Shown here: positions 356 to 51,874 of the stretch, one piece after another
Numbering within the stretch: the first letter of the stretch is position 1
Layout of the letters: every line of letters starts with the position of its first letter
Origin: Deltaproteobacteria bacterium
GTDB lineage: Bacteria > Chloroflexota > Dehalococcoidia > Dehalococcoidales > BS750m-G39
NCBI GenBank assembly: GCA_030603275.1
Contig: JAUVYB010000004.1
Coordinates: 23,778 to 87,777 of the forward strand
Length of the DNA stretch: 64,000 bases
Direction: 5' to 3'
The notes under the pieces: generated by a model
What the model was told of the DNA's origin: nothing
The model's database searches: none
The model's input: the letters and a program-made list of their open reading frames with translations, nothing else
Translations under genes and position numbers: made by a program

Positions 356-655
356 CCCCATTAACCCCCCACCTGTTCTTAAGTCGTTTTACTACCCACC
401 CACCCACCCTACAGAAGTGATACTTCTATCAATTTCTTCTTGGGGGTGGGGAAAAGGAGAGGCTAATCTCTCTTCTGGGGGTGGGGCAAAAAGGGCTTTA
501 GCCCTACCTTAAGGGCGGCGGGCGGGAAAAGATATAAAACGGGGTGGGGGACTAAGTGTTAAGCTTTAAAGGGTGGGTGGTGTGGGAAAAAGACAATGGG
601 GGGGCGGGGTTCAAGCCCCTTGATAAACAACCACTGATAAGTCTAATATTATAAA
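356..655 (+). repeat. Intergenic mosaic repeat island 1 (modules A and C)
   Basis: This 300-bp gap holds no gene. Module A spans about 405-441 with the inner palindrome agaagt-gat-acttct. Module C spans about 511-550 (aagggcggcgggcggg then gatataaaacggggtggggg). Between them is a short stem, agggctttagccct. After C come further G-runs (gggtgggtggtgtggg), which could form a G-quadruplex on the + strand. Near-identical A and C copies recur at 6.8 and 30.4 kb (A) and at about a dozen other sites (C). Confidence 0.8.
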
Positions 656-1245: not shown

Positions 1246-2031
1246 TTATTCACCGGGCAGATGTACTGCCACCTTCTCCGCCATCATATTCTCGCTGTCA
1301 TAGACGGCGCGGGCCAATTGTCCCTCCTCCACGGCGATAAAGCCGTTGAGGACGAACACCGTGTCCTCGTTATAGCGCAGGGTCACCGCCTCACCATCAT
1401 CGGGGGTTATTTCTATGGTTTCCGAGGAAACATCGGTGATAGTGCCGCTGACGCGTGCGCAGGTGGCCGGTTTTACAATCAGCACCCACCTGGCCAGGCT
1501 TTCACCATCGGCCAGCCAGACCACCACCCTGTCGCCGACCTCAATATCACTGAATTCAGCCCCGGCGCCAAAGGGGCGGCGAATCGCCTGCTGGGGTTCG
1601 GGGAGGGGAACTTCTTCCGTTTGAGCTACCCTGTTTTGAACCCTTAACCTCGCCTGACTAGATACTAAAGCCCCGGCTCGCACCCGGTTCTGAACGCCCA
1701 AGCACGTGCCCGGCTCTTCTGGAGTTCCGGCCTCTGCCTGGTTGCGAAGTCTGAATTGCTGGGCCAGAGCTGTAATCCGCCCCGGTACATCCAGCATGAA
1801 GTATCCGGTATTTTCGTCTACTCTTATGCCTATCTCATCTTCTCCGGACTGAACCTTAAAGTATGCCTGGTTTTCCTCATCAACTTCGGTTACCGTGCCC
1901 CTGACTATACTGGCTTTTGCATCCTCGGTCCAGGGCATGGGTTCATCCGAATCGGCCAGGGCGGGCAGGGCCAGACCTAAAACCAGACTCAACGCCAGTA
2001 CCGAAGCCACAGCTATCTTTAGTAGCGACAT
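1246..2031 (-). CDS. Exported protein with DUF5666-like beta segments
   Basis: The 261-residue product begins with a clear Sec signal peptide (MSLLKIAVASVLALSLVLGLALPALA|D). The mature part has two stretches of the pattern 'SGTITDVSSETIEI..' and 'RGTVTEVDEENQAYFKV..', which resemble the small OB/beta-barrel repeats of DUF5666-type periplasmic or extracellular proteins. A linker with repeated RVQNRV segments joins them. The start ATG at 2031 has a strong SD, aggaggtg, eight bases upstream. A 29-codon ORF overlaps its start. It follows the SIMPL lipoprotein gene on the same strand, so the two may be co-transcribed. Function is unknown; it probably acts outside the membrane. Confidence 0.75.
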   Translation of the reverse strand: MSLLKIAVASVLALSLVLGLALPALADSDEPMPWTEDAKASIVRGTVTEVDEENQAYFKVQSGEDEIGIRVDENTGYFMLDVPGRITALAQQFRLRNQAEAGTPEEPGTCLGVQNRVRAGALVSSQARLRVQNRVAQTEEVPLPEPQQAIRRPFGAGAEFSDIEVGDRVVVWLADGESLARWVLIVKPATCARVSGTITDVSSETIEITPDDGEAVTLRYNEDTVFVLNGFIAVEEGQLARAVYDSENMMAEKVAVHLPGE

Positions 2032-2108
2032 TTTACTTTCACCTCCTGTAGTTTAGTCTCTTTTCCGGCAAATAAAATCAACCGGATAATATCCAACAGT
2101 TTTTTCAT
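2019..2108 (-). CDS. Candidate 29-codon leader ORF overlapping the exported-protein start
   Basis: Not in the ORF track. It reads MKKLLDIIRLILFAGKETKL..VKVKCRY and stops 13 bases inside the downstream gene (start at 2031). Its ATG at 2108 has a good SD (gggagg, about six bases away). The overlap would favour translational coupling or attenuation of the exported protein. The peptide is hydrophobic in its first half and basic at its end. No family is recognised, and it could be chance given its length. Confidence 0.45.
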   Translation of the reverse strand: MKKLLDIIRLILFAGKETKLQEVKVKCRY

Positions 2109-2132
2109 CTAAAACCTCCCAGTTAAAAATTA

Positions 2133-2879
2133 TCAGTCCGCGATGGCGTAAGCCACCTGAACGGTAAGGGTAAGCTCTATCTCTCCGGGGCTGATGGGCG
2201 TGGTGGGCGCTGGCGCTACCATTTCCATCCCGGCGTCTCGATAGACAACGGGAGGATATACGGTGCCCTCGGAGATATAGGTGGGCTTGCCCAGCCCAAT
2301 GCCGGCCAGGTCGGCCAGCTGTTCGGCCTTGGCCCTGGCATCAGCCATTGCCTCCTGGCGGGCTTCCTCATAGTAGGGGGTGGGGTCGTCTACGGAAAAG
2401 CTGATGTTATTGATGCGGGTGTAGTCTCCACCGGCGACGGCGACGGCATCAATAACCGGGCCGGCCTGCTCTACATCCCTTATCTTTGCGGTTACCATAT
2501 TGGTGACCCGGTAGCCGGTCACAACCGGCTCGTCCTTGTAATCATCCCACCTGGTTACCTGGTAAATGCTGAAATATCGGGTCTGGATATCCTTATCCGC
2601 CACACCGCTGTCAGCCAGGGCTGCCATCACCGCATCCATGGCCGTAGCCGCCTGGGCCTGAGCCTGGGCTACCGTATCCGCCTGAGCCTCAATACCCAGG
2701 GACAGAATGGCGATATCAGGGGTAACGGCGACCTTGCCGGTGCCGCTGACCCAGATACCCGATTGCTGGCTATTGATGTCCACCGTATCAATAGTGGTAG
2801 GGCCGCCGGTGCAACCGCTAAAGCCGACTACCGCCAGCATCAGCACCAGGCTCACCGCCACCAACCAAAACTTTTTCAT
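2133..2879 (-). CDS. SIMPL-domain (DUF541) lipoprotein
   Basis: The product is 248 residues. The ATG at 2879 is chosen over the longer ORF start because an aaggagg SD lies six bases upstream and the protein then begins MKKFWLVAVSLVLMLAVVGFSGC, a lipoprotein signal with lipobox FSGC. The rest matches the SIMPL/DUF541 family: ISVSGTGKVAVTPDIA-type opening, repeated alternating segments such as 'VAQAQAQAATAMDAVMAAL', and RVTNMVTAKIRDVEQAG. Family members are periplasmic or surface proteins of uncertain role, some forming oligomeric channels or cages. It precedes the leader ORF and exported protein on the same strand. Confidence 0.88.
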   Translation of the reverse strand: MKKFWLVAVSLVLMLAVVGFSGCTGGPTTIDTVDINSQQSGIWVSGTGKVAVTPDIAILSLGIEAQADTVAQAQAQAATAMDAVMAALADSGVADKDIQTRYFSIYQVTRWDDYKDEPVVTGYRVTNMVTAKIRDVEQAGPVIDAVAVAGGDYTRINNISFSVDDPTPYYEEARQEAMADARAKAEQLADLAGIGLGKPTYISEGTVYPPVVYRDAGMEMVAPAPTTPISPGEIELTLTVQVAYAIAD

Positions 2880-2978
2880 CGCTTGCCTCCTTGATATTCT
2901 TTCTTCCACCTATATATAACGAAAAAGCCGCCGATTAGTTAGGCGGCGACTTAAGGGAATTTTAAAAAAGGGTTATGA

Positions 2979-3866
2979 CTACTCTAAAGCCTCAAGGACC
3001 TCCTCATAGCCGTCCTCCGATACGGCAAGCGCCCGTCGCAGGGCAGCCCTGGTTGACTCCGGTACTTCATCCAGCACGGCGTGCAGAACCGCCCGGTTAT
3101 GAGCCGCATTAGACACCAGCGTGTCCCTTAGCTGAGCCCGATTACCGTTCCGGGCAGTGTCATCACTGCTACCCCAATCCTTCCCCGGCTGGGGTGCTAA
3201 TACCGGCTCCGGCGGGGCTTCATCAGTTGTCGGCGGTTCCGTCGGGGCTCCAGCTTCTTCTGTCGGCGGCGCCATCAGCATCGGTTCTTCATCCCCACTC
3301 TGGGCCAGGACGAGCACAGTCAAAAGTGCCAGGTGCCTGTCCAGGCGCTGGGTGACAAGCTCCACCTGCCCGGTATTACCCTTACCGGCCATGTAAGCTA
3401 TCTCGGCCACACGCCGGTCAGCCAGCTGGGCGCAGAGCCTAGCCTTACCCATCTGAGAGGGAGTTAGCGTCAGGCGCACCTGCTCGGTGGCCAGCTTTAC
3501 CGAATAGAGAGGGCTATCGGGCATGCTGCTATCGGCGGCGGCAACCGTGCCTCCCCCGCCTAACACCAGGACGAGAACTATAGCCATCACCGTTGCCCAC
3601 CGCGGGAACCAGCCCCAGGAGGTGCGGCTCTTACGGGCGGTCCTTTCCTGTAGCGCCGCGCGGAACTGGTACATGGCCCTGGCTTTGAAATCGGGGCGGG
3701 GCTGAATGGCCGACGCCTCCCTGGCCGCCAGAGCCGTCTCCAGTAACGGCTTTAGCTCGGCTGCCTGCCCTGGGTAGCGTGCAAGGCACTGCTCCAGGCT
3801 TTCGCCTTTAACCAGCAGCCGTTCCAGGCATTCGTTTAAGATATTATCAAATTCTCTATTCTTCAT
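2979..3866 (-). CDS. Membrane-anchored anti-sigma-like protein (DUF5667)
   Basis: The N-terminal ~75 residues (NECLERLLVKGESLEQCLARYPGQ..) resemble the cytoplasmic segment found in Chloroflexi anti-sigma-like proteins. One transmembrane helix follows at about residue 90-110 (WATVMAIVLVLVLGGGGTV). The extracytoplasmic part has the DUF5667 pattern DSPLYSVKLATEQVRLTLT, then a Pro/Glu-rich linker and a C-terminal helical region. Its start overlaps the ECF sigma gene by 11 bases, the usual sigma/anti-sigma layout. It probably holds the sigma factor at the membrane until an envelope signal arrives; this is inferred from layout and topology. Confidence 0.8.
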   Translation of the reverse strand: MKNREFDNILNECLERLLVKGESLEQCLARYPGQAAELKPLLETALAAREASAIQPRPDFKARAMYQFRAALQERTARKSRTSWGWFPRWATVMAIVLVLVLGGGGTVAAADSSMPDSPLYSVKLATEQVRLTLTPSQMGKARLCAQLADRRVAEIAYMAGKGNTGQVELVTQRLDRHLALLTVLVLAQSGDEEPMLMAPPTEEAGAPTEPPTTDEAPPEPVLAPQPGKDWGSSDDTARNGNRAQLRDTLVSNAAHNRAVLHAVLDEVPESTRAALRRALAVSEDGYEEVLEALE

Positions 3867-4398: not shown

Positions 4399-4939
4399 CT
4401 GACAACTCCCAGCCGCTTCAAGCGGTAATTATGGCGTTATCCTGTGCACATAGTATAACGAAGCAAATAGCAAAAAGATAGTTTCCTAATCGTAGCAACC
4501 CACCCGATAGAGGTTACACCTCTCTCTGACTTGGGGGAGGATTGACCCCACTTCCCACCCCTTTTAACGATTCTATTTCTTCCTGGGGGGCTTGAATGTT
4601 TAGCTGGCAACTCTACTTAGCAACCTACCCCCTTAATCCCCCTCCCTTGTAAGGGAGGGGGAAGGTTTTTTATAGAAGAGGGGGCTTCGCCCCCTCTTAA
4701 ACACCCCTGATATTTTTTGAGTTTTAGAGGCATAGCTTTTGAGGATGGGAGTAAAAAGGTCTTTAGCCAGTTTCATTAATAAGGGCGGCGGGCTTAATTC
4801 CCATCCCCTGTAAGGGGTGGGGCGTAACCTTTCCATATAAGGGTGGTGGGCGGGAATAGATATAAATGGGGGTGGGGGGAATAAAGGGCTAAGTTATGCT
4901 ACAATACTACAAAATTTAGACTTTATAGGAATTAAGAAC
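4399..4939 (+). repeat. Intergenic mosaic repeat island 2 (modules B and C)
   Basis: This 541-bp stretch between divergent genes has no credible ORF. Module B spans about 4627-4708 with both stems: ccctccctt/aagggaggg, then a T-run and agaggggg-cttcg-ccccctct. A truncated stem (cccatcccc/ggggtggg) follows, then module C at about 4839-4880 (gggtggtgggcggg, tataaatgggggtgggg). An AT-richer stretch with tacaat at about 4903 lies before the GNAT gene and may contain its -10 element. Confidence 0.8.
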
Positions 4940-7520: not shown

Positions 7521-8162
7521 TTATGGTGCCTTTACTAATAAACATATATTGCGGGAAAAGAGCTTTAGCGGGAAGCGGTAGGCGCTCTCCGGGAAGGATT
7601 TTATTACCTCAAAGCCCGCCCCCTCTGCCAGCTTTTCCAGCTCACTATAGGAGAAGAGGTAGTAGCGACGGTGGAGGGTCTGGCCTTTTTTACGCCAGGG
7701 TACGGTTACCTCTTTGGGCTTGAACCAGAAACGGGGCTGGCAGCGGTTCCATACCGTGATAAAGGCCTCAGCGCCGGGCTTCAGCACCCGTTTGAGTTCA
7801 GCTAAAGCCGCCTGGTGTTCCCCGCCCATGAGGTGGTGATAGGTTGCCACCGCTATTGCCCAATCAAAGCTCTCATCGGGGTAGGGGAGGCGGCGTACAT
7901 CAGCCAGCGTCAGCTCCACGGCCAAGCCGAATTTCTGGGCGTATTTTTCGGCGAACTTTAGCATCTCGGCGGAGAAGTCCACCCCGTAGAGCTCAAAGCC
8001 GTCTTTAAAGGGCAGAAAATCGGGGCCGTGGGCGCAGCCGACGTTGAGCAGCTTGCCCTTCTGCCAGCGCTCTGCCAGCGCCTCCAGCTCGGTGCGGAAT
8101 ATAGACCAGTGCCGGAAGTTATACCAGCCGGGGGCTATCTGGTTAAATACTTCTCTTGTCAC
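7521..8162 (-). CDS. Trm9/ALKBH8-like SAM methyltransferase
   Basis: A 213-residue class I methyltransferase. It has the SAM motif LLNVGCAHGPDFLPF, the acidic residue in ELYGVDFSAEM, and the signature VATYHHLMGGEHQAALAELKRVLKPGAEAFITVWN followed by VPWRKKGQTLHRRYYLFSYSELEKLAEGAGFEV. That HH..RVLKPGG..VW..RYY order is typical of Trm9/ALKBH8 enzymes, which methylate 5-carboxymethyluridine at tRNA wobble position 34. It is divergent from an Elp3 gene, whose product makes that carboxymethyl group. The start is GTG 8162 at the edge of a repeat island. The substrate is inferred from motif and neighbour. Confidence 0.75.
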   Translation of the reverse strand: MTREVFNQIAPGWYNFRHWSIFRTELEALAERWQKGKLLNVGCAHGPDFLPFKDGFELYGVDFSAEMLKFAEKYAQKFGLAVELTLADVRRLPYPDESFDWAIAVATYHHLMGGEHQAALAELKRVLKPGAEAFITVWNRCQPRFWFKPKEVTVPWRKKGQTLHRRYYLFSYSELEKLAEGAGFEVIKSFPESAYRFPLKLFSRNICLLVKAP

Positions 8163-8446
8163 CCTATCCCCTTTATCCCCTTCCCCTCAAGGGGAAGGGG
8201 AAGATTTCTTTTAGAAGAGGGGCTGACGCCCCTCTTAAACACCCCTTTAAGGCGGCGGGAAAACCCCTTCCATATAAGGGCAGCGGGCGAGGCCCCTTAC
8301 TTCCCTGCCCATTTAGGGTGATAGGGGAGTTACCCTTCCATATAAGGGAGGCCGGGCGGGAATAGATATAAATCGGGTGGGGCTCCGTCCCCCTACGTTA
8401 TGTTTCTGTTTAAAATTCAAATCTGCTACACTGTTTATGGCACATT
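8163..8446 (+). repeat. Repeat island 4 between Trm9-like gene and elp3 (modules B, C)
   Basis: Module B spans about 8164-8246 (ccccttcccc-tcaa-ggggaagggg, T-rich, agaggggctgacgcccctct, taaacacccc). Shorter fragments follow (ggcggcggg, two copies of cttccatataaggg). Module C at about 8344-8382 ends in tataaatcgggtgggg. The divergent promoters of the two genes must lie within or beside these repeats. ctacact at about 8425 could be the elp3 -10 element. Confidence 0.75.
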
Positions 8447-9838
8447 ATGAGGAAATTTACAAGGACTATATCCGGGGTGACGCCGGTGGCGGTGATGACC
8501 CGGCCCCTGAAATGCCCGGGGCAGTGCATTTTTTGCCCCACCTACCCGGCAATACCCCAGAGCTATACCCCGGAATCGCCGGCGGTGCTGAGGGCGATAA
8601 GGTGCGACTACGATGCCGGTAAGCAAGTCCGCTCAAGGCTGAAAGCGCTGGAGGAAATGGGGCACCCCACCGATAAGATTGAGCTGATAGTGATGGGGGG
8701 TACCTTTCTGGCCTACCCCGAAGACTACCAGTACCAGTTTATCCAGGGCTGCCTGGACGGCCTGAACGGCCGGCAGTCGGCCGACCTGGAAGAGGCCAAG
8801 AAAATCAACGAAACGGCCGGGCACCGCTGCACCGGAATGTGCATCGAGACCAGGCCGGACTGGTGCCGGCAGCAGGAAATAGAGCGGATGCTGGAGTTCG
8901 GCGCCACCAGGGTGGAGCTTGGCGTCCAAATACTGGATGACGAAATCTACCGCCTGACCCGGCGCGGGCACAAGGTGGAGGATGTGGTGCGTGCTACCGC
9001 CCTGCTGCGGCAGCACGGCTTTAAGGTTCACTACCACTGGATGCCGGGGCTTCCCGGCTCCACCCCGGAGCACGACCTGGAGCTATCGAGAAAGCTTTTC
9101 GAGGACGAGCGCTTCCGGCCGGACGGATTAAAGCTGTACCCGACCATGGTGGTCGAGGGTACCGAGCTGGAGAAGTGGTACTTCGAAAACCGCTACCAGC
9201 CTTATGAGATCAGCACCATGATCAACCTGATGGTGGATATAAAATCCATCGTGCCCAAATATGTCCGGATATCGCGGGTGCTGCGTGATATACCGGCCAA
9301 GTTTATCACCGCCGGCTGCAAGGATTCTCTGCGAGGGGTGGTAAAGCAGCGGATGAAGCGAAAGGGCATTGAGTGCCAGTGCATCCGCTGCCGGGAGTAC
9401 GGCCACCGGGCGCGGGACGGCTGGGAAACCGGCGAGCCCCGCTTAACCAGGATGGACTATGAAGCTTCAGGGGGGAGGGAAATCCTTCTCTCTTTTGAGG
9501 ACGAGACGGAAACCCTTTTCGGCCTACTGCGGCTCAGGATTCAGCCCCGGTCCGAGAGCGGAGGAAATTCAGCGGTGATACGGGAACTGCATGTCTACGG
9601 GCCTGAGGTTCCGCTCACCGAGCAGCGGGAAGGAGCGGCCCAGCACAGGGGGCTGGGTAAAGCCCTGATTAATGAGGCGGAGCGGATTGCCGCTGATGAG
9701 TTTAAAGCGCCGCAGATGACGATTTTGAGCGGCATAGGTGCCAGGGAATACTACCGCAGTGAGTTCGGCTATAGTTTACAGGGGGCTTATATGGTTAAGG
9801 AGCTACAGGTTACGGCACCGAGGTTATCGCTGCCTTAA
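8447..9838 (+). CDS. elp3: Elp3, tRNA wobble-uridine carboxymethylating enzyme
   Basis: The 463-residue enzyme combines a radical-SAM domain and a C-terminal acetyltransferase domain. The [4Fe-4S]-binding cysteines are C23, C27 and C30 (CPGQCIFC). Other signs are the ECQCIRCREYGHR zinc-binding segment near residue 305, and the HAT motif HRGLGKALINEAERIA with SGIGAREYY at the end. Elp3 uses acetyl-CoA and a SAM radical to build the cm5 group on U34 of tRNA. Most bacteria lack it. A bacterial member from Dehalococcoides has been studied structurally as a monomer, and this protein matches what I recall of it closely. The other Elongator subunits are absent, as expected. The start ATG 8447 lacks a clear SD. 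Confidence 0.93.
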   Translation: MRKFTRTISGVTPVAVMTRPLKCPGQCIFCPTYPAIPQSYTPESPAVLRAIRCDYDAGKQVRSRLKALEEMGHPTDKIELIVMGGTFLAYPEDYQYQFIQGCLDGLNGRQSADLEEAKKINETAGHRCTGMCIETRPDWCRQQEIERMLEFGATRVELGVQILDDEIYRLTRRGHKVEDVVRATALLRQHGFKVHYHWMPGLPGSTPEHDLELSRKLFEDERFRPDGLKLYPTMVVEGTELEKWYFENRYQPYEISTMINLMVDIKSIVPKYVRISRVLRDIPAKFITAGCKDSLRGVVKQRMKRKGIECQCIRCREYGHRARDGWETGEPRLTRMDYEASGGREILLSFEDETETLFGLLRLRIQPRSESGGNSAVIRELHVYGPEVPLTEQREGAAQHRGLGKALINEAERIAADEFKAPQMTILSGIGAREYYRSEFGYSLQGAYMVKELQVTAPRLSLP

Positions 9839-10196
9839 CTCTCTGCAACCCACCCCTGCCCCCTTCCAACAGTTGTTTTTCTTCCCACCCTATTATATTT
9901 ACTTAGCAACCCACCCCCTTTATCCCCCTCCCTTGTAAGGGAGGGGGAAGGTTTTTTATATAAGAGGGGCTGACGCCCCTCTTGGACACCCCAGTTAAAA
10001 TAGGCAGGGGGGAATAAGAGAGATGAAAAGAGGCTATGCCTTTAAAATTCCCTTGGAAAGTAGGGGTAATTCTTCCCCTCTGGGGGTGGGGAGATAAGGG
10101 GAGGTTAATCCAAAGGGGTGTTTAAGAGGGGGCTATGCCCCCTCTTTTCCTTAAAAGGGCGGCGGGCGGGAAAAGATATAAATTGGGGGTGGGGGA
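9839..10196 (+). repeat. Repeat island 5 after elp3 (modules B, reversed B, C)
   Basis: Module B spans about 9906-9992 in forward orientation; its first stem plus GGTTTTTT could serve as a terminator for elp3. A reversed second-stem unit (gtgtttaagagggggc-tat-gccccctct) is at about 10115-10145. Module C at about 10154-10195 abuts the stop codon of the convergent membrane-protein gene. No ORF is credible here. Confidence 0.75.
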
Positions 10197-10625
10197 TTAC
10201 CCGCTTTTAGATGGTGTTTTATTTCCCGCCTTCCACACAGACCAAATGACCCAGAGTACCAGCAGATAGAGACCAACACTAGCCGCAAGGAGCAGGACAG
10301 CGGCTATTATGCCAAAGGGTAAAATAGGATCAGGTGAGAAAACAAAGCGGAAAAAGTGAATTATGCAATCAGTGATAGCACCTGTAGCTACTAGCGTAAC
10401 CGATATTGCTACCGGCAGGCTCTTTAGCTTTTTCAGGCTGGGCCTGATAGTGAGGTAGATGAGAAGGGCATAGGTTCCCAGAATGGCAAGTATGAGCAGG
10501 ATTATTACCGCCAGACTGCCCGCTGAGGTGGTGATAGTGACCCTCCATACCAGACTTATAATTCCAGCACTGAGAGCTAGCGTAAGACTAACAATGAACC
10601 ATATCTTGAGAGGTAATCGATTCAT
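10197..10625 (-). CDS. Four-helix membrane protein of unknown function
   Basis: The 142-residue product is almost entirely hydrophobic, with about four membrane segments (IWFIVSLTLALSAGIISLVW; LAVIILLILAILGTYALLIYL; AISVTLVATGAITDCIIHFF; FGIIAAVLLLAASVGLYLLVLWVIW). Its ATG overlaps the stop codon of the ctpA gene by four bases, so translation is probably coupled. No family recognised. Confidence 0.65.
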   Translation of the reverse strand: MNRLPLKIWFIVSLTLALSAGIISLVWRVTITTSAGSLAVIILLILAILGTYALLIYLTIRPSLKKLKSLPVAISVTLVATGAITDCIIHFFRFVFSPDPILPFGIIAAVLLLAASVGLYLLVLWVIWSVWKAGNKTPSKSG

Positions 10626-11755
10626 TCTTTACCCCTCAGAAAGTCTATCGCCCACTGAACGGCGTCCTCATTCTCCAGGTCAAGCTCATAGTCCGGGGGT
10701 AGCCCCTGGCCTTCTATCAGGCGGCCGTTGGGGGTGAACCAGCGAGCGTTGGTGATGTATAACCCGGAGCCATCTGTAAGCGGGTAAAGCACATTGGCAC
10801 TGCCCTTGCCATAGGTCTTTTTACCGGCAATGGTAGCCCGGCCGTAGTCCTGCAAAGCGCCCGCCAGCACCTCACTGCCGCTGGCGCTGTATTCGTCCAC
10901 CAGAACCACCAGGGGCAGCTCAGTGGTCATCCCACCTGATTCGACCGAGTAAGCAACATGACCGCCCTCATTATCTACCACATCAATCAACACGCCCTCC
11001 TCAAGGAAAAAGCCGGCGACATCAACCACTGTCGTCAGCAGGCCGCCGGGATTGCTGCGCAGGTCAAGGATAATGCCCGAGGCCTGCTGGCCTACCTCCT
11101 CCATCACCGGGTATAGCTCTACGGCCGTCCGCTCGGTAAAATTGGTTATATTAATGTAAGCGATGTCCTCCTGCATCTCAAAGAGGACGCTGGGCAGCTC
11201 AACCTCAGCCCTGACTATCTCGATTACCTCCGGTTCGGTCTCGCCATCGTGAAGTATGAGCAGGGTAACCACCGTCCCTTTGGGACCCCGGACGTTGAGC
11301 ACCACCTCAACCAGGCTCATCCCGGCAGTAGGCCTGCCATCGACTTCCAGAATCACATCGCCGGCCTTAATACCGGCCTTATCCGCCGGTGAGCCGGCAA
11401 CGGGAGCGATAACTACAACCTGCCCGTCTTCGGCGTTCACATAGGCGCCGATGCCGTCAAACTTTCCCTCCAGGCTCTTCATATTCAGCTCGTAGGCGGC
11501 GGCATCAAGATAGGAGGTGTAGGGGTCATCCAGCGCCTCCACCATCCCCCTTATAGCGCCCTGCGCCAGTGCCTGGGCATCAAGCTTGTCCTTATCCACG
11601 TAATCCTGAAAGATTATGTTCCACACCTGCTCCACGACACCAAGGCTCTGCCGTGGGGAGCTCCGGGTACCCATAACCCAGCCGGTACCGAAGGACACGG
11701 CCACCACCGCCGCTACCAACAGGACGATGACTATAGTTTTGGCTCTTTCAGACAT
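10622..11755 (-). CDS. ctpA: C-terminal processing protease, S41 family (CtpA-like)
   Basis: An N-terminal signal anchor (TIVIVLLVAAVVAVSFGTGWVMG) is followed by a PDZ domain (GIGAYVNAEDGQVVVIAPVAGSPADKAGIKAGDVILEVDG) and the S41 core. The Ser/Lys dyad lies in VLVDEYSASGSEVLAGAL and AGKKTYGKGSAN. These serine proteases cut proteins near their C termini in the periplasm or cell envelope. I choose ATG 11755 rather than 11764: the aaggag site is ten bases from 11755 but almost touches 11764. Length, 377 residues, is normal for the family. Confidence 0.92.
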   Translation of the reverse strand: MSERAKTIVIVLLVAAVVAVSFGTGWVMGTRSSPRQSLGVVEQVWNIIFQDYVDKDKLDAQALAQGAIRGMVEALDDPYTSYLDAAAYELNMKSLEGKFDGIGAYVNAEDGQVVVIAPVAGSPADKAGIKAGDVILEVDGRPTAGMSLVEVVLNVRGPKGTVVTLLILHDGETEPEVIEIVRAEVELPSVLFEMQEDIAYINITNFTERTAVELYPVMEEVGQQASGIILDLRSNPGGLLTTVVDVAGFFLEEGVLIDVVDNEGGHVAYSVESGGMTTELPLVVLVDEYSASGSEVLAGALQDYGRATIAGKKTYGKGSANVLYPLTDGSGLYITNARWFTPNGRLIEGQGLPPDYELDLENEDAVQWAIDFLRGKE

Positions 11756-11838
11756 CGGGCTCATTCTCCTTAAAGCGTCTCAGACGGGTAAGACTATATT
11801 ATATTATCAGAGGGGGGGATCTTTTAAGCTACTCACAA

Positions 11839-12190
11839 GGCCAAGTAAACCTGTAAGCCGAGTTCTGTACTCCGACGAAACGGAGCGGTGACCATCTATC
11901 TAGCCCTGACGTTGCCATCAGGGTCAAGCGACCAACCCGGGGACAGGCCGGGCGTCCTTATGTCCCTCTATTTGGTCTTGCTCTGGATGGGGTTTACCCA
12001 GCCGACCGGTCACCCGGCCGCTGGAGAGATCATGCCACACCATTTCACCCTTACACTCTCGGGCGGTATGTTTCAGTTGCACTATCCGTAGGGTTACCCC
12101 TCCTGGGCGTTACCCAGCATCCTGCCCGGTAGAGCTCGGACTTTCCTCCCCAAAATAAAATTTTAGGGCGGTCACCCGGTTTACTTGACC
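11839..12190 (-). ncRNA. rnpB: RNase P RNA
   Basis: Not in the ORF track. Read on the minus strand, the RNA starts ggtcaagtaaaccggg and ends cagaactcggcttacaggtttacttggcc. The ends pair as helix P1 (aagtaaacc/ggtttactt). The conserved gaggaaagtccgagctc core and the acagaactcggcttac 3' segment are diagnostic of bacterial type A RNase P RNA. It is the catalytic subunit that trims the 5' leader of tRNA precursors. The length, about 350 bases, is normal. ORFs predicted across it (such as 11888-12091) are not genes. Confidence 0.95.
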
Positions 12191-12197
12191 TGATTAC

Positions 12198-12226
12198 ACT
12201 GTAGTATAGAAGGTATTAGAAGTCAA
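12198..12226 (-). promoter_or_regulatory. Promoter of rnpB
   Basis: On the minus strand TTGACT (12226-12221), a 17-base spacer and TACAGT (12203-12198) lie seven bases before the predicted RNA 5' end at 12190. The -35 element overlaps the last codons of the upstream RNase HI-like gene. Confidence 0.65.
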
Positions 12227-12624
12227 CTTAAAGCCTGGCCCGCCAGCCTATCCGCCTCTCTGTTTTGTGTGCGGGGGATGTGAGTTATGGTGAAGGCTTC
12301 CAGAGAGCCGATGAGCTGGACTACTTTTTGGTATAGCGGGCGCAGAGTGGCTTTTTTGACGCGGTAGCGGCCTTTAAGCTGTTTAACCACCAGCTCTGAG
12401 TCCGACCTGATTTCCACCTCTGCGGCGCCGAGGCGAGCCGCCTCCTCGAGGGCGGCAATGACAGCCCGGTATTCCGCCTGGTTATTGGTGGCGTGGCCAA
12501 TGCGCCGGGAGATGCGGCTAATGACCCTGCCCTGCCCGTCCTGTATAACCACACCGATAGACGCCGGCCCGGGGTTGCCCGATGAGGCGCCATCGGTATA
12601 GATTATCAGTCTTTTTGGCGTCAT
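12223..12624 (-). CDS. RNase HI-family protein
   Basis: The ATG at 12624 gives 133 residues and has an aaagggg site just upstream; the longer ORF start lies inside the preceding gene. All four catalytic acidic residues of RNase HI can be placed: YTDGASSGNPGPASIG, NNQAEYRAVIAAL, IRSDSELVVKQL and RTQNREADRLA. The protein is of the short YpdQ/RnhA-like group that cuts RNA in RNA-DNA hybrids. It follows the zinc-ribbon gene by eight bases; this pair is common across bacteria. Confidence 0.9.
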   Translation of the reverse strand: MTPKRLIIYTDGASSGNPGPASIGVVIQDGQGRVISRISRRIGHATNNQAEYRAVIAALEEAARLGAAEVEIRSDSELVVKQLKGRYRVKKATLRPLYQKVVQLIGSLEAFTITHIPRTQNREADRLAGQALS

Positions 12625-12632
12625 TTGCCCCT

Positions 12633-13328
12633 TTAGGCCAGGAACAGGATGCGCCCGCAGCTGCTGCAATACACCAGGTTGTTACCCCTCGCCCGCTGCA
12701 GGTCGGTGGTGGGCAGTGATATCCGGCAGCCGCGGCATATCCCCTGCTCCACCCTGGCCACCGCCGTCCCTTTCCCTTTTCTGAGTTGCTGATAGAACTC
12801 TACTGTCTCCGGCTCAATCTCGGCGGAGAGCAGCTGCCATTTTTGCTTGAGGTCGGCAAGGGCGGTTTGGAGCTTTGCCTTCTCGTCGGCTAGCTGCTTT
12901 TGCCGGCGCCGCCAATCGGCGGTCAGGGTTTTAAGCTCACCGCTTATCCTGGCTACGCCGGCCTCCGATTGCTCAACCTGGTCTATTATCCCCAGCGCTT
13001 TTTCTTCCAGCTTGCCGCGCCTGGTTTTGAGCATATCCACGTCCTGCTGGAGACTGGCCAGCTCCTTGGGGTTCTTTACCCGGCCGCTGAACAGCTTCTC
13101 TTCGGCGGTGGCAATCATGGTGGCGATATCGTCTATCTCCCACTCCGCGGAGTGCTGCTGGTGCTTTAGCTCTTCCAGATGCTGCTGCTCCGACTGGAGC
13201 TGGGTTTGAGCTTCCAGCACCGCCTGGCTTTCGCCGAGCTGGCCGGTGACATGCTTTAGCGCCCGGTCATCGGACTCAATTTCTACGTCAAATTCCTGAA
13301 GCTGATAGAGCTGCCTGGAAAGATTCAT
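12633..13328 (-). CDS. Coiled-coil protein with C-terminal zinc ribbon (CdsZ/DUF164-like)
   Basis: The 231-residue product is a long helical hairpin (for example LQSEQQHLEELKHQQHSAEWEIDDIATMIATAEEKL) ending in a four-cysteine zinc ribbon, CRGCRISLPTTDLQRARGNNLVYCSSCGRILFLA. This is the conserved layout of the CdsZ/COG1579 family, proposed to bind nucleic acid or act with RNA-related enzymes. It is upstream of the RNase HI-like gene with an eight-base gap, supporting an RNA-linked role. The start ATG at 13328 has only a weak SD. Confidence 0.88.
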   Translation of the reverse strand: MNLSRQLYQLQEFDVEIESDDRALKHVTGQLGESQAVLEAQTQLQSEQQHLEELKHQQHSAEWEIDDIATMIATAEEKLFSGRVKNPKELASLQQDVDMLKTRRGKLEEKALGIIDQVEQSEAGVARISGELKTLTADWRRRQKQLADEKAKLQTALADLKQKWQLLSAEIEPETVEFYQQLRKGKGTAVARVEQGICRGCRISLPTTDLQRARGNNLVYCSSCGRILFLA

Positions 13329-13668
13329 TTTACCCGCCTATTCTATAACGACTGTGGCGTAATAGCAATTTATTTAAGAACCCTATCCCCCTGTATCCCC
13401 CTTCCCCTTATCAAGGGGAAGGGGGAAAGTTTTTTTAAGAAGAGGGGCTGACGCCCCTCTTAAACACCCTACCAGGTCAGTCCCCTTTCAAAGGAGACAG
13501 AGAAATAAAAATGGGGGATTTTACCACCGAGGGGGTTCTTGGGTCTCCCTCACTTTTAGGAAAGGGGAAAGAGGGTTAAAGAGGCCAAGCCTTTTTGGGT
13601 GGGCGGGTGGGAAATAAAACACTCGTTAAAAATAGGGCGGGAAAAGAGATAAAACGGGGGGTGGGGTA
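13329..13668 (+). repeat. Repeat island 6 (modules B and variant C)
   Basis: Module B spans about 13381-13470 (cccccttcccctt-atc-aaggggaaggggg, T7, agaggggctgacgcccctct, taaacaccct). A fragment ttttgggtgggcgggtgggaaataaaacactcgtt follows. A shortened C (agggcgggaaaagagataaaacggggggtgggg) covers about 13633-13665. ORF 13556..13852 minus runs through this repeat and is not accepted. The next 65 bases hold an imperfect dyad around aacacatgtgc near 13693-13708, possibly an operator of the following ORF. Confidence 0.75.
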
Positions 13669-13733
13669 GTGACAAATGCTTATAGTCATAATAGAACACA
13701 TGTGCTATTATTTTATAAAGAAAGGGGAGGATT

Positions 13734-13880
13734 ATGAGACTGCTGCGACTGGCCGTGGAGATTAAGCGGTGGGACCTGGCCGCCCACACCATCGTGCTGG
13801 CGAGCGCCAGAGTACTCAAGAACGGAGACAGACCGGATGGCGGAAAAGGCAAAGCGAAAAAGCGGCGCCCCAGAGGGTAA
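13734..13880 (+). CDS. 48-codon ORF ahead of the terminase genes
   Basis: Missing from the ORF track because of its size. It reads MRLLRLAVEIKRWDLAAHTIVLASARVLKNG followed by a basic Gly/Lys/Arg tail. It has a strong SD (aaaggggagg, four to five bases from ATG 13734) and overlaps the TerS-like gene by 44 bases in another frame. The good ribosome site and tight coupling argue for a real gene. The overlapped basic tail may partly be dictated by the TerS frame. No family recognised. Confidence 0.6.
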   Translation: MRLLRLAVEIKRWDLAAHTIVLASARVLKNGDRPDGGKGKAKKRRPRG

Positions 13881-14199
13881 CCAGAACGCCCGGACGCACG
13901 GATTTTATTCTAAAGTTCTGGACGAAGCGGAACAGCTCGACTTTGAGCTGGTATCCGGCTTTGACGGCTTCGACGGCGAGATTGCCCTGCTGAGGGTCAA
14001 GATAAAGTCCCTGCTGGAGAAAGACCCGGAGAACATCAGGCTGCTGATGCAGGCAACCGAGTCACTGGCCAGGCTGGTCAAGACGAAGTACAACATCACC
14101 AGGGAGCAGAAGAAGGGGCTGAAGGAGGCCATAGGCAATGTTCTCAAGGATATCGCCATACCGCTGGGCATCAAGGTCATAGGCAATCTAGCTAAATAG
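13837..14199 (+). CDS. Terminase small-subunit-like protein
   Basis: The 120-residue product opens with KRKSGAPEGNQNARTHGFYSKVL, a motif often seen in small phage DNA-packaging or terminase-associated proteins. The rest is helical (LARLVKTKYNITREQKKGLKEAIGNVLKDI). TerL follows on the same strand after a 305-bp gap occupied by repeats. Family precedent suggests it binds DNA and presents it to TerL. No portal, capsid or tail genes are nearby, so it belongs to an orphan module. Confidence 0.65.
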   Translation: MAEKAKRKSGAPEGNQNARTHGFYSKVLDEAEQLDFELVSGFDGFDGEIALLRVKIKSLLEKDPENIRLLMQATESLARLVKTKYNITREQKKGLKEAIGNVLKDIAIPLGIKVIGNLAK

Positions 14200-14496
14200 A
14201 TGATTTTTGGTGACCCACCCCCTTAATCCCCCTCCCTTATTAAGGGAGGGGGAAGAATTTTCTTAGAAGAGGGGCTGGCGCCCCTCTTAGACACCCTGCC
14301 AGGTCAGTCTCCTTTACAAAGAAGTGGGGTAAAAAGGGAGTTGAAGAGGCGGAGCCATGGATTCAGGGGGGTTAAGGGGGACGAAGTCCCCCTCTTAAAT
14401 CTAACTCCCCCTCTCCAAGAGTGGAGAGGGGGATACAGGGGGTGAGGTTGATAAATGAAAATCGGGGTGGGAATAGATATAAAAAGGGGTGGGGCA
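14200..14496 (+). repeat. Repeat island 7 between terS-like and terL (B, third stem, C)
   Basis: Module B at about 14212-14297 (ccctcccttattaagggaggg; agaggggctggcgcccctct) follows the terS-like stop. A further palindrome, ccccctctcc-aagagt-ggagaggggg (about 14406-14431), is followed by atacagggggtgaggttgat, which recurs in reverse orientation upstream of pyrE. A variant C (tgggaatagatataaaaaggggtgggg, about 14468-14494) ends ten bases before the terL ATG. Confidence 0.75.
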
Positions 14497-14504
14497 ATTA
14501 TATT

Positions 14505-15896
14505 ATGTCAATAAACGTCCTGAATAAACTGCGCCCCTACCAGCGGGAGGCGGCCTCGGCCATACTGGACAGCGTCCTCAAGCGCAAGGGGCTCACCTTC
14601 TCCGTGGAGATGGCCCGCCAGGGGGGCAAGAACGAGCTGTCGGCGCAGCTTGAGCTGCTGCTGCTCACCATCCACATGACCCGGCCCGAAAACCTGATAA
14701 AGTGCGCCCCCACCTTCAAGCCCCAGACGGTCATATCCATGATGCGGCTCAGGGACCGGCTTAACGACGCCGGTTTTAGCGGCATCTGGGTGCCCGAGAT
14801 GGGCTACATCATCAGGCTGGGCAGCGCCAGAGCCATATTCCTTTCCGCCGATGAATCGGCCAACGTCGTCGGCAACACCGCCCATATCCTGCTCGAAATA
14901 GACGAAGCCCAGGATGTGAGCAAGGACAAGTACACCAAGGAGTTCAAGCCGATGGGCGCCACCACCAACGTCACCACCGTCCACTACGGCACCACCTGGG
15001 ACGACGCCACCCTGCTGGAAGAGGTCAAACAGAGCAACCTGGAGATGGAGAGGCAGGATGGCGTAAAGCGCCACTTCCGCTACGACTGGCAGGAGATAGC
15101 CAAACACAACCCCGACTACCTCGCCTACGTCGAGGGGGAAAGGGAGAGATTGGGGGAAAACCACCCCCTGTTCCTGACCCAGTACAGGCTCCTGCCCATC
15201 CGGGGCGGCGGGGGTTTCTTAAGCCGCCAGCAGCTCGCCCAGCTGAAAGGCAGGCACGCCCGCAAGCACCGGGCCGAGCCGGGCAAGATATATATCGCCG
15301 GAATCGACATCGCCGGCGAGGCCGAGACCGCCGAGGGCGACTATCTAAGCACCCCCAAATTAAGGCAGGACTCCACCGTGGTCACCATCGGCGAGCTCGA
15401 CTTTTCCATCTGCGACGATATCCGGAAACAGCCCCGGATACGGGTGGTGGAGCACTACCGCTGGACCGGCCGGAAGCACTCCGAGCTATATTCCCGGCTG
15501 GTCGACCTGCTTAAAGATGTCTGGAAATGCCGCAGGGTGGTGGTCGACGCCACCGGCATCGGCCAGCCGGTAAGCTCTTTCCTGAGGAAGGCGCTCGGCT
15601 CCAGGGTGTCCGCCTTCACCTTCACCGCTAAAGCCAAGTCGGAGCTGGGCTTTAACCTCCTGGCGGCTGTCAATTCAGGGCGGCTCAAGGTCTATAAAGG
15701 CGACGGCTCCGAAGAGGCGCAGGAGTTCTGGCTGGAACTCGAACGCGCCAAGAGCCAGTTCAGGGCATCAATGACGATGAACTTCTACGTCCCCCCGTCG
15801 CAGGGGCACGACGACTTCCTGATGAGCCTGGCGCTGGCGGTGGAGGCGGCCAACCTTTATGAGAGGAGAGGGGCGTGGGGGAGTGTGAGGGAGTAA
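14505..15896 (+). CDS. Terminase large subunit (ATPase-nuclease), orphan
   Basis: I place the start at ATG 14505 (464 residues); the ORF-track start at 14421 lies inside repeat DNA. The ATPase has a divergent Walker A, MARQGGKNELS (residues 36-46), Walker B LLEIDEAQDV, and a coupling motif HYGTTWDD. The C-terminal RNase H-like nuclease shows its three acidic sites: IAGIDIAGE, VVVDATGIGQ and GHDDFLMSLALA. TerL motors pump and cut phage DNA into capsids. Here only a TerS-like gene and a 48-codon ORF accompany it. All motifs look intact, so it may be functional in a satellite, a gene-transfer agent or another role. Confidence 0.87.
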   Translation: MSINVLNKLRPYQREAASAILDSVLKRKGLTFSVEMARQGGKNELSAQLELLLLTIHMTRPENLIKCAPTFKPQTVISMMRLRDRLNDAGFSGIWVPEMGYIIRLGSARAIFLSADESANVVGNTAHILLEIDEAQDVSKDKYTKEFKPMGATTNVTTVHYGTTWDDATLLEEVKQSNLEMERQDGVKRHFRYDWQEIAKHNPDYLAYVEGERERLGENHPLFLTQYRLLPIRGGGGFLSRQQLAQLKGRHARKHRAEPGKIYIAGIDIAGEAETAEGDYLSTPKLRQDSTVVTIGELDFSICDDIRKQPRIRVVEHYRWTGRKHSELYSRLVDLLKDVWKCRRVVVDATGIGQPVSSFLRKALGSRVSAFTFTAKAKSELGFNLLAAVNSGRLKVYKGDGSEEAQEFWLELERAKSQFRASMTMNFYVPPSQGHDDFLMSLALAVEAANLYERRGAWGSVRE

Positions 15897-16530: not shown

Positions 16531-16737
16531 ATCGGGGAAAGAGCAGAGTTTAAGAGGGGGCTGAAAGCCCCCTCTCTTTATTGGTGGCAAAAAAAGAGTC
16601 TAAAGAGGCGGAGCCTTTTTGGGTGGGGTAAAAAGGGCTTTAGCCCTACCTTAAAGGGCGGCGGGCGGGAATAGATATAAAACGGGGTGGGGCAAGAAAG
16701 ATTGGGGGGATGGGGGGGCTACCCTAAAGCTAAATCC
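16531..16737 (+). repeat. Repeat island 8 (reversed B stem, D fragment, C)
   Basis: A reversed second B stem (gtttaagagggggctgaaagccccctct) is at about 16549-16576 and could end transcription of the DUF pair. A D-like fragment, gcctttttgggtggggta, and an agggctttagccct stem follow. A full C is at about 16654-16692. Confidence 0.75.
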
Positions 16738-19426: not shown

Positions 19427-19580
19427 TGGGGCGAAGGGGCAAAAAAGAGAGTCTAAGAGAGGCAAAGCCTTTTTGGGCGGGGTAAGAAAGGGCTAATCCA
19501 AGGGGGTGTTTAAGAGGGGGCAAAGCCCCCTCTTTACCTTAAAGGGCGGCGGGCGGGCATAGATATAAAACGGGGCGGGG
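19427..19580 (+). repeat. Repeat island 9 (reversed B stem and C)
   Basis: After the AT-rich gene come a D-like piece (gcctttttgggcggggta), a reversed second B stem (gtgtttaagagggggc-aaa-gccccctct, about 19506-19533) and module C (19541-19580). From 19581 to 19719 there is ordinary intergenic DNA with tacaat near 19685, a possible -10 element for the tubulin-like gene. Confidence 0.75.
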
Positions 19581-19719: not shown

Positions 19720-20892
19720 ATGAAACTGACCGTCGTCGGGCTGGGGCGGGGCGGGGGTAAGATTGCCGATGAATTTGCCCACCTGAACAAAAAAGCCAGG
19801 GCCAGGCGGGGCTTAGAGATAATCACCGACGCCTTTGCCGTCGACACCGACCCGGCTGACCTGAACAGCCTGCGCGCCATAAAGCACGACCTCCAGCACA
19901 GAATCCTCATTGAAAGCGAGAAGACAGACGGGAGCGGAACCGTCCAGATGAGCGAAATCGGCGCCGAAATAGCCATGGAAAACAGCAACAGGGTCCTCGA
20001 CGCCATAAGAGCCGCCGGGCGGCTCTTCGATACCGACGCCTTCCTGCTTACTGCCAGCGTCGTCGGCGGCACCGGCTCCGGCGGCATGCCGGTAATGGCG
20101 CAGGCCCTGAAGGACTGCTACCACGATAAACCGGTATACGCCCTGGCCATCCTCCCCTTCCTGGACGAGGAGGCCGAGGAAGAACGCATTACCTATAACG
20201 CCGCCATATCGCTCAAGTCTATCTATTCCGTGGCCGATGCCGTATTCGTGGCTGACAACCAGCAGTACATCACCAGAGACACCACCTTGAGGGACAAGCC
20301 GGCCAGGATTAACGAGCTGATAGTGGCGCCGTTCTACGACCTGCTCTGCGCCGGCGAAGAGGAAAAGACGAAGTACATCGGGGCGAGCATGGCCGACTTC
20401 GGCAATATAAGAGAGACGCTCACCGGATGGACCGCCATCGGTTGCGGGCGAGCGCCGCTGCCTTCCAGAGGGCTATTCAGCAGGTGGCGCAGTTTCAGGG
20501 ACAAGAGCGCTGACAGGCAGGCGGGCGTTCAGGCGGCGGAGGCGGCCATAAGCCAGCTGCCGGTTGACTGCCAGCCGGCGGACGCGGAAAGAGCCTTATA
20601 CCTGGTCACGGCGCCGGCGGCGGATATGAGGCCGGAGCTGTTCCATGAGACGGGCGGCTTCCTCAAAAGTGTGGCGCGGGGGGCAGTGCTCAGGAGCTGT
20701 GACTATCCCCGGGGGAGGGGCGAGATGGAGGTGACGGTGGTCTTCTCCGGGCTAACCTCTATAGAGAGGATAAAGGGATACTACGACATCGTGGGCGGCC
20801 TGGTGCGCAAGGTAAAGACGAGGCAGGCGGAAGCCGAAAAGAAAGCCAGGGCCATGGAAGCGGCGGCCAGGAAAATACCCTCGCTGCTATAA
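19720..20892 (+). CDS. CetZ-like tubulin/FtsZ-superfamily GTPase
   Basis: The 390-residue protein carries the tubulin signature GGTGSGG at residues 116-122. Its N-terminal phosphate loop is VVGLGRGGGKIADEF (residues 5-19), and the probable T7 loop is ASMADFGNI with Asp226. The pattern EIGAEIAMENSNRVLDAIR..DAFLLTASVVGGTGSGG..PVYALAILPFLDEE, and ERALYLVTAP..CDYPRGRGEMEVTVVFSGLTSIERIK near the end, follows the order seen in archaeal CetZ proteins rather than FtsZ. Such proteins polymerise with GTP and act in cell shape or division. The C-terminal tail is helical and basic. A gggggtg SD precedes ATG 19720. Confidence 0.8.
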   Translation: MKLTVVGLGRGGGKIADEFAHLNKKARARRGLEIITDAFAVDTDPADLNSLRAIKHDLQHRILIESEKTDGSGTVQMSEIGAEIAMENSNRVLDAIRAAGRLFDTDAFLLTASVVGGTGSGGMPVMAQALKDCYHDKPVYALAILPFLDEEAEEERITYNAAISLKSIYSVADAVFVADNQQYITRDTTLRDKPARINELIVAPFYDLLCAGEEEKTKYIGASMADFGNIRETLTGWTAIGCGRAPLPSRGLFSRWRSFRDKSADRQAGVQAAEAAISQLPVDCQPADAERALYLVTAPAADMRPELFHETGGFLKSVARGAVLRSCDYPRGRGEMEVTVVFSGLTSIERIKGYYDIVGGLVRKVKTRQAEAEKKARAMEAAARKIPSLL

Positions 20893-26348: not shown

Positions 26349-26440
26349 AGCTTTTTTTCAATGAACAAGGCGCTTAACGGCTGAATTTTCTTTCTAGTTA
26401 TGTTAAAATACATAAAATCATCCGGCAGTGAGGAGGAGTG

Positions 26441-27346
26441 GTGAAAGAAGCTATTGATAAATTCCTGAACTATCTGGCGGTGGAGAAGGGCTTTTCCCGG
26501 AACACCACAGAAGCCTACAAGAACGACCTGAACCAGCTGACCGGCTTTCTGGAAGAGGCGGCCAAGGGGGGAACTATCCCGCCCTGGACAGCCTTTGACC
26601 GGCAGGCCGTCTTAAGCTACCTGACCAACCTCAAGGAGAGGCGGTACGCCGCCACAACGGTAGCCCGCAAGGTGGCCGCCATCAAGTCCTTCTTCAGCTT
26701 TCTGACGGCGGAGGGGCTGGTAAAGGAAAACCCAACGCGGGATGTGCCCTCACCGAGGGTGGGCAAGTCGCTGCCCAAGCCAATCTCAATCACACAGGCC
26801 CGCCAGCTGCTGGACGAAACGGAAAAGCGGGCGACGCCGGAAGCCAAGAGAGATAAAGCCATGCTGCACCTGCTCTATGCCAGCGGCATGAGGGTGAGCG
26901 AACTGGTATCGCTGAACCTGAACGATATAGATACTGACGGCGGCTATGTGCGCTGCTTCGGCAAAGGGAGCAAGGAGCGGCTCATCCCCATTCACAGCCA
27001 GGCGGTGGCGGCGCTGAAGGATTATATAAGCGAGGGACACCCCAGGCTGAAAGCCGGCGACGGAGAGGAGGCCCTGTTCCTTAACCGGCGCGGCGAGAGG
27101 CTGACACGGCAGGGGCTGTGGCAGATACTCAAGGGCTACGCTAAAGCGGCCAAGCTGGGTGTTGAAATTACCCCCCATACGCTGCGGCACAGCTTTGCCA
27201 CCCACATGCTGAGCGGCGGGGCCGACCTGAGGTCGGTTCAGGAGCTGCTGGGGCACGCCAATATCTCCACCACTCAGGTCTATACCCACCTGACCACGGA
27301 ACACGTCCGGCGCGCCTATGAAAAATCTCACCCGAGGGCTAAGTAG
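26441..27346 (+). CDS. xerD: XerC/XerD-family tyrosine recombinase
   Basis: About 301 residues with an N-terminal SAM-like domain (FLNYLAVEKGFSRNTTEAYKNDLNQL) and a complete catalytic set: Arg in GMRVSELVSL, Lys in GKGSKERLIPI, HxxR in HTLRHSFATHML, His in LLGHANISTTQVYTH and the nucleophile Tyr. Size and context (housekeeping genes around it) fit chromosome-dimer resolution rather than phage integration. Two adjacent GTG codons (26438, 26441) follow aggagg; the second has the better spacing. Confidence 0.92.
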   Translation: MKEAIDKFLNYLAVEKGFSRNTTEAYKNDLNQLTGFLEEAAKGGTIPPWTAFDRQAVLSYLTNLKERRYAATTVARKVAAIKSFFSFLTAEGLVKENPTRDVPSPRVGKSLPKPISITQARQLLDETEKRATPEAKRDKAMLHLLYASGMRVSELVSLNLNDIDTDGGYVRCFGKGSKERLIPIHSQAVAALKDYISEGHPRLKAGDGEEALFLNRRGERLTRQGLWQILKGYAKAAKLGVEITPHTLRHSFATHMLSGGADLRSVQELLGHANISTTQVYTHLTTEHVRRAYEKSHPRAK

Positions 27347-40439: not shown

Positions 40440-40660
40440 TCCCCCTCTATTACTCCCTCACCACCCCACACTCCCCACCTGATGGGGAGAGAATAACATC
40501 ACCCAATGGGGGGTGGGAAAAGAGAGCTGATAAGAGTCAAAGCCTTTTTGGGCGGGAGGGTATGGGAAGAAAAACAACTTATAAAATGGGGGGATAAAAA
40601 GGGCTCAAAGCCCTACCATAAAGGGCGGCGGGCGGGAAAAGATAATAAAGGGTGGGGCAA
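40440..40660 (+). repeat. Repeat island 11 (modules D and C)
   Basis: Module D (gcctttttgggcgggagggtatgggaagaaaaac) is at about 40543-40576. A stem agggctcaaagccct follows, and C lies at 40621-40660 with a slightly altered core (gataataaagggtgggg). ORF 40506..40718 runs through this repeat into tRNA-Asn and is not a gene. Confidence 0.75.
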
Positions 40661-48054: not shown

Positions 48055-48380
48055 CTTAGATATTTGCTTACCAACCTACCCCTTTATCCCCCTCCCTTAC
48101 CAGGGAGGGGGAAGGGTTTTTTAAGAAGAGGGGCTTTACACCCCCAAAAAACTTTGTTTTTTCGGGGGCCCCGTATGCGCCCCTCTTAAACACCCCACTG
48201 GGTTAACAACTTTTTACAGGGGTGGGATAAAAAGGGCTTTAGCCCTTTTACATTAAGGGCGGCGGGCGGGAAAAGATATAAAACGGGGTGGGGAAAAGAG
48301 ATGAAAATAGGCGAAGCCTGTTTGGGCGGGAGGGTATGGGAAGATAAACAAGACTTTAAAATGGGGCGGGGCAACGCCTC
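48055..48380 (+). repeat. Repeat island 13 (B with nested E2, C, D)
   Basis: Module B spans about 48072-48197. Its second stem is split by element E2 between gggcttta and tatgcgcccctct. After taaacacccc come a stem agggctttagccct, C at about 48254-48294, and D at about 48318-48345. No ORF here is credible. Confidence 0.78.
48137..48175. repeat. TA-flanked palindromic element E2 nested in module B
   Basis: Between TA dinucleotides: cacccccaaaaaac-ttt-gttttttcgggggccccg. It lies in the loop of the second B hairpin, so removal of E2 plus one TA would restore a normal B (ggggcttatgcgcccc). Confidence 0.75.
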
Positions 48381-51824: not shown

Positions 51825-51874
51825 TTCAGAAAGGTATTTATGAGGGAAGTTTGAGGGGGTGAGGATAATAAAAT

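Follow-up and report, generated by a model that had tools for sequence, protein, structure and literature searches.

A split gene-transfer-agent-like locus with a shared promoter in Dehalococcoidia

The ORF48-TerS-TerL module examined here is the DNA-packaging half of an ancient, still-maintained, virus-derived particle system, the other half of which (portal, capsid, tail) lies elsewhere in the same genome behind the same private promoter. Together they look like a gene transfer agent (GTA) of a kind for which we found no earlier report in Dehalococcoidia or Chloroflexota, in a literature search that did not extend to subscription journals or preprints. The stretch of DNA analysed (the window, 64,000 nucleotides) is positions 23,778 to 87,777 of contig JAUVYB010000004.1 (here C41) of GCA_030603275.1, a 1.52-Mb genome in 50 contigs (here G000). 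Other G numbers denote the genomes compared, C numbers their contigs and L numbers retrieved loci or viral contigs.

An earlier note, made from the sequence of the window alone, described a 48-codon ORF, a TerS-like gene and an apparently intact TerL with no portal, capsid, tail or integrase. That observation is confirmed: the three genes are where the note placed them, and no portal or major capsid protein (MCP) gene lies on the window's contig. However, the absence of particle genes holds for the window and not for the genome, which carries them on contig C7, so the module is an orphan only locally. The nearest tyrosine recombinase in the window, and the only integrase-like gene near TerL, is housekeeping XerD, and no integrase was found by family matches beside either half, although att sites were not searched systematically. 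Coordinates are collected in the table below; note that genes were called with a simple ORF finder.

Table. Positions of the features discussed, in the window unless another sequence is named.
Sequence	Position	Strand	Feature	Basis or remark
window	11838..12187	-	RNase P RNA	RF00010, 2.8e-93; conserved host neighbour that helps mark the fixed chromosomal site
window	12223..13328	-	RNase HI-like and zinc-ribbon (CT398-like) genes	conserved upstream neighbours of TerS-TerL in the order; named from sequence recognition, not a database match
window (C41:37448-37488)	13671..13711	+	composite promoter GACAAA-N15-TAGAACA-NN-TGTGCTATTAT	palindromic operator core 13692-13711 between a -35-like and a -10-like hexamer
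window	13734..13880	+	ORF48, conserved 48-codon gene	overlaps the start of TerS; function unknown
window	13837..14199	+	TerS, small terminase subunit	phrog_1889, 3.7e-7
window	14207..14500	.	copy of a dispersed GC-rich repeat between TerS and TerL	in relatives such as L036 the two genes overlap
window	14505..15896	+	TerL, large terminase subunit (ATPase and RNase H-like nuclease), 463 aa	Pfam Terminase_6C (PF17289) 1.5e-7; phrog_5909 2.7e-7; ATG at 14505, alternative GTG start at 14421
window	19720..20892	+	CetZ/FtsZ-like tubulin homologue	directly after TerL in many other members of the class
window	26438-27346		XerD	nearest tyrosine recombinase; housekeeping
window	477-547, 4805-4875, 13380-13640, 14207-14500, 16620-16690, 19508-19578, 40587-40657, 48221-48291		dispersed GC-rich intergenic repeats	in many copies
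C7	50531-50571		second copy of the composite promoter	before the capsid cluster
C7	50596-50916		HTH protein	heads the capsid cluster
C7	50909-52345		SPP1-type portal	PF05133; portal search placed it at 50909-52309
C7	52355-52834		scaffold-like protein	
C7	52838-53758		epsilon15 gp7/SU10-type MCP	NF045672/phrog_212; followed by two unassigned proteins
C7	55762-56355		SU10-type adaptor	PF24175
C7	56376-56705		109-aa protein	
C7	about 56811 to 58880		tail protein (tail hub/lectin-like)	667 aa
C7	58840-59094		small protein	
L191 (own genome)	10679-12355		secreted TIG/Ig-domain protein	divergently placed beside the capsid cluster
L202 (G002)	1931-3725		large serine recombinase interruption of MCP	after codon 48
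L197 (G004)	8867-10517		large serine recombinase interruption of MCP	after codon 48
L332 (G415)	1969-3682 and 7886-9659		large serine recombinase interruptions of MCP	near codons 47 and 92
L405 (G034)	552 and 771		tandem composite promoters	before the HTH-portal cluster
G589	C2:10416-11714		TerL	
G589	C1:1910430-1911311		MCP	

All three packaging genes are conserved and under purifying selection. In 108 TerL homologues, Walker A (RQGGKNE), Walker B (EIDEAQD), the coupling motif (GTTWDD) and the nuclease aspartates are essentially invariant, and the TerL of this genome keeps every catalytic residue. ORF48 is not a chance ORF: about 80 matches to it were found, phage relatives included, nearly all of them directly before TerS, and it is 79-92% identical in amino acids within the family. 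Selection on TerL had been named beforehand as a check of the module, and pairwise dN/dS (Nei-Gojobori) over full-length comparisons is low for it (0.10-0.20) and for the other core genes: ORF48 0.09-0.27, TerS 0.05-0.29, MCP 0.05-0.13, portal 0.09-0.17, and adaptor and tail 0.10-0.20 (tail 0.10-0.19). The scaffold-like protein and the flanking TIG-domain protein (0.34-0.51) are looser. The TIG-domain gene lies beside the capsid cluster, or near TerL, in many genomes.

The note had also proposed searching relatives for the module and for linked capsid genes. Searches with TerL of relatives and of genome contigs returned many chromosomal homologues, and a search of IMG/VR returned 49. Clustering the neighbouring genes showed TerS-TerL followed, directly or after host genes, by a portal, scaffold-like protein, MCP and SU10-type adaptor. 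G000 has one TerL, one portal and one MCP, the latter two in a single complete cluster on C7, and the contigs put the two halves at least about 52 kb apart. A sequence search of solved structures gave nothing useful for MCP and only E~0.9 for TerL. The AlphaFold model of the tail protein is of moderate quality (mean pLDDT 66), and Foldseek with it points to a beta-propeller lectin fold, with hub/tip proteins (Mu gp44, monocin tip) also among the matches; this is suggestive only, as whole-chain TM scores are low.

Both halves recur, mostly as single copies, across class Dehalococcoidia. Among 220 genomes at least 90% complete and at most 5% contaminated, TerL is present in 142 and MCP in 101. 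The two co-occur: 90 of the 101 MCP-positive genomes also have TerL, against 52 of 119 MCP-negative ones (90/11/52/67, Fisher p=5e-13), although genomes are not independent, most are MAGs, and absence counts are affected by incompleteness. In sister genera (G004, G006, G007, G010) the halves are 3-9 kb apart on the same strand, whereas in this genus (G000, G002) they are on different contigs. In complete genome G091 they are about 675 kb apart, and other complete genomes (G098, G239, G290) are also split. The host contexts of both halves are conserved: TerS-TerL sits next to the zinc-ribbon/RNase HI/RNase P block in many members of the order, and next to a CetZ gene, whose functional link to the system is unknown, in many other members of the class. 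TerL/MCP pairs also occur in other Chloroflexota classes; in G589, a two-contig genome, they are on different contigs, possibly different replicons.

To assess inheritance, we compared FastTree gene trees with RpoB in 27 genomes. The MCP tree largely follows RpoB, sharing 15/24 splits, including 9 of 10 strong ones, with a Mantel r of 0.75 (permutation maximum 0.25). The TerL tree does so only partly, sharing 13/24 splits with r 0.58; 9 of 14 strong splits are shared and 5 contradicted. The conflict is mainly in the probable Dehalogenimonas group, some members of which have 2-4 TerL copies. MCP evolves at 0.76 and TerL at 1.39 times the RpoB rate. Trees of TerL, portal and MCP were not reconciled with a concatenated species tree. 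A probable Dehalococcoides genus (G018, G054, G090) has lost the capsid genes but kept TerS and TerL. The split between Dehalogenimonas and Dehalococcoides is dated at 496 Mya (PMC13390414), but assigning our genomes to these genera is our inference.

The halves also share a promoter. Sequences upstream of ORF48 and of the HTH-portal cluster share the pattern GACAAA-N15-TAGAACA-NN-TGTGCTA-N-TAT (41 bp). We scanned 101 genomes with up to 3 mismatches and found exactly two sites in G000, both perfect and one before each half, and two sites, one per half, in G001, G002, G004, G007, G009 and G010; a reversed-pattern control gave none anywhere. In the window only the one site matches (chance 0.04). 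The pattern was derived from these sites, so the independent test is a scan of 2.9 million IMG/VR contigs, in which only 10 matched, all ten with the site just before HTH-portal or TerS. One of these (L412) also carries an integrase, while none of 20 integrase-bearing relatives has the core operator.

Because the operator resembles GAAC-N4-GTTC, we considered SOS/LexA control. The looser core GAACANNTGTKC occurs at only five places in the genome, and the three other than the two promoters are inside coding sequence, so recA/lexA are not among them at this stringency. We therefore reject SOS as the simple explanation, although LexA itself was not located, and the arrangement looks like a private two-promoter regulon. 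G008 has no TerL or portal match, yet has five copies of the composite promoter (L387, L389, L390), at least three of them followed by an ORF48 homologue, so a promoter-ORF48 cassette seems to spread on its own. G034 has 24 copies, two in tandem before the HTH-portal cluster and the rest before unrelated genes or in gaps.

Mobile relatives also exist. Twenty retrieved contigs carry a tyrosine integrase and resemble ~18-kb temperate phages of Dehalococcoidia (e.g., L110/L150, L113, L120-L126, L142). They have homologous ORF48-TerS-TerL-portal-scaffold-MCP-adaptor-tail genes in the same order, but they are contiguous, carry HNH/methyltransferase genes and lack the composite promoter, with L412 the one exception. 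Their TerLs interleave with chromosomal ones. Most of their MCPs form separate clades and a few interleave, while MCPs of class members outside the order form one phage-free clade apart from G179. Either several domestications or exchange between fixed and mobile forms has occurred. Isolated phages with a related capsid or terminase (Streptomyces phage Rowa, Gordonia phage Ewald, Paenibacillus phage Unity; Bacillus phage vB_BboS-125) are distant, full-size lytic or temperate phages of other phyla, with MCP about 39-40% identical over the full length and TerL at most 32% identical.

GTAs as defined in PMC9662315 (Rhodo-, Barto- and Brachygtaviriformidae) are among the closest known systems. Like them, this system has homologues of tailed-phage particle proteins, its own TerL, portal and MCP, endogenised genes spread over more than one locus without an integrase, and mostly vertical inheritance (for TerL only partly). 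The Brachyspira GTA is a precedent for a TerL encoded apart from the main cluster. The differences are the phylum, the epsilon15 gp7/SU10-type MCP and SPP1-type portal, and the private two-site promoter that links the halves; RcGTA is HK97-like. The low-carbon amino-acid bias of alphaproteobacterial GTAs relative to phage homologues is absent: we found no difference for TerL, portal or MCP, and scaffold and adaptor were slightly the other way.

The note's interpretation is partly supported. Of the three options it offered (a satellite, a GTA with split loci or a host role), the evidence supports the GTA with split loci. Our preferred explanation, held with reasonable but not high confidence, is a split, vertically inherited, co-regulated GTA-like system derived from a small tailed phage with an epsilon15/SU10-type capsid. 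Computation shows that both halves are intact, single copy, under purifying selection and old, and that both carry the same private promoter/operator. The rest is our inference: a dedicated regulator (candidate: the HTH protein) would derepress or activate both promoters together, capsids would assemble around the portal, TerS-TerL would load host DNA by headful packaging, and particles would be released and transfer DNA to related cells. GTA function rests on analogy, as no particle, packaged DNA or transfer has been seen; encapsidation of host DNA, head capacity and delivery were not measured here. The distance between the halves nonetheless makes co-packaging implausible. In this view, the split arose by chromosomal rearrangement of an originally linked cluster, still linked in sister genera, and is tolerated because the particle does not need to package its own genes. 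Against this reading, gene exchange with phages is not ruled out, no lysis gene was identified, and about 35% of the good genomes lack TerL and more lack MCP, so the system is dispensable.

The alternatives are less likely. The chromosomal genes could be successive remnants, some recently intact, of the ~18-kb temperate phages, and some lineages do show decay: the probable Dehalococcoides have a broken portal and lost MCP, and frameshifted MCPs occur. A decaying prophage in relatives was the outcome that the note had said would overturn its reading, but it is seen in only a few lineages, such as the Dehalococcoides-like genomes, one of which (G054) has a truncated TerL. Single copy, conserved flanks, lack of an integrase, an MCP tree tracking RpoB, strong purifying selection on both separated halves and a promoter shared by them but absent from 20 integrase-bearing contigs make this unlikely. 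Nor does the system fit an active temperate prophage: no integrase was found by family matches beside either half (att sites were not searched systematically), and the halves are unlinked. About equally unlikely is a domesticated particle with another host role, e.g., a killing or defence particle, a DNA-export device for another purpose or TerL used alone as a nuclease. In its favour, TerS-TerL persists in Dehalococcoides-like genomes without capsid genes, with dN/dS still 0.11, some genomes have only one half, and the GTA amino-acid bias is missing. However, portal, MCP and adaptor are kept together with a catalytically intact packaging motor under a shared promoter, and a non-packaging particle would not need TerL or a portal. 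In one Dehalococcoides-like genome TerL has lost its third nuclease motif, consistent with dependence on the capsid. A PICI-like satellite hijacking a helper's capsid is very unlikely: although the packaging genes stand alone locally, there are no integrase, replication or capsid-redirecting genes, and the genome encodes its own matching capsid cluster under the same promoter.

A bolder reading, which we consider about as likely as not, is a working, class-wide GTA of Chloroflexota that has co-diversified with Dehalococcoidia for several hundred million years, with scattered packaging and particle genes re-united by a private two-site promoter. It would have been lost in Dehalococcoides and kept in its probable sister genus Dehalogenimonas, offering a DNA-transfer route in organohalide-respiring bacteria, and the TerL/MCP pairs in other classes suggest it may be older than the class. 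Experimentally recognised GTAs come from few lineages, so a phylum-level new lineage with an unrelated capsid type would show that GTA-like domestication has happened more widely and can persist with its genes unlinked. The promoter gives a short sequence tag for finding such systems in other genomes and in transcript data, and makes it directly testable whether this is one regulon. Dehalococcoidia include the bacteria used to clean up chlorinated solvents, where the route of gene exchange is an open question.

The MCP gene is interrupted by large serine recombinase genes at recurrent points, the same point but different recombinases in G002 and G004 and two points in G415. MCP seems to be an attachment site for site-specific elements; assembly graphs of these three genomes were not examined. 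Some MCPs (L311, L329, L407, L409, L415) carry an in-frame insertion of roughly 50 aa around residue 150 or are otherwise enlarged.
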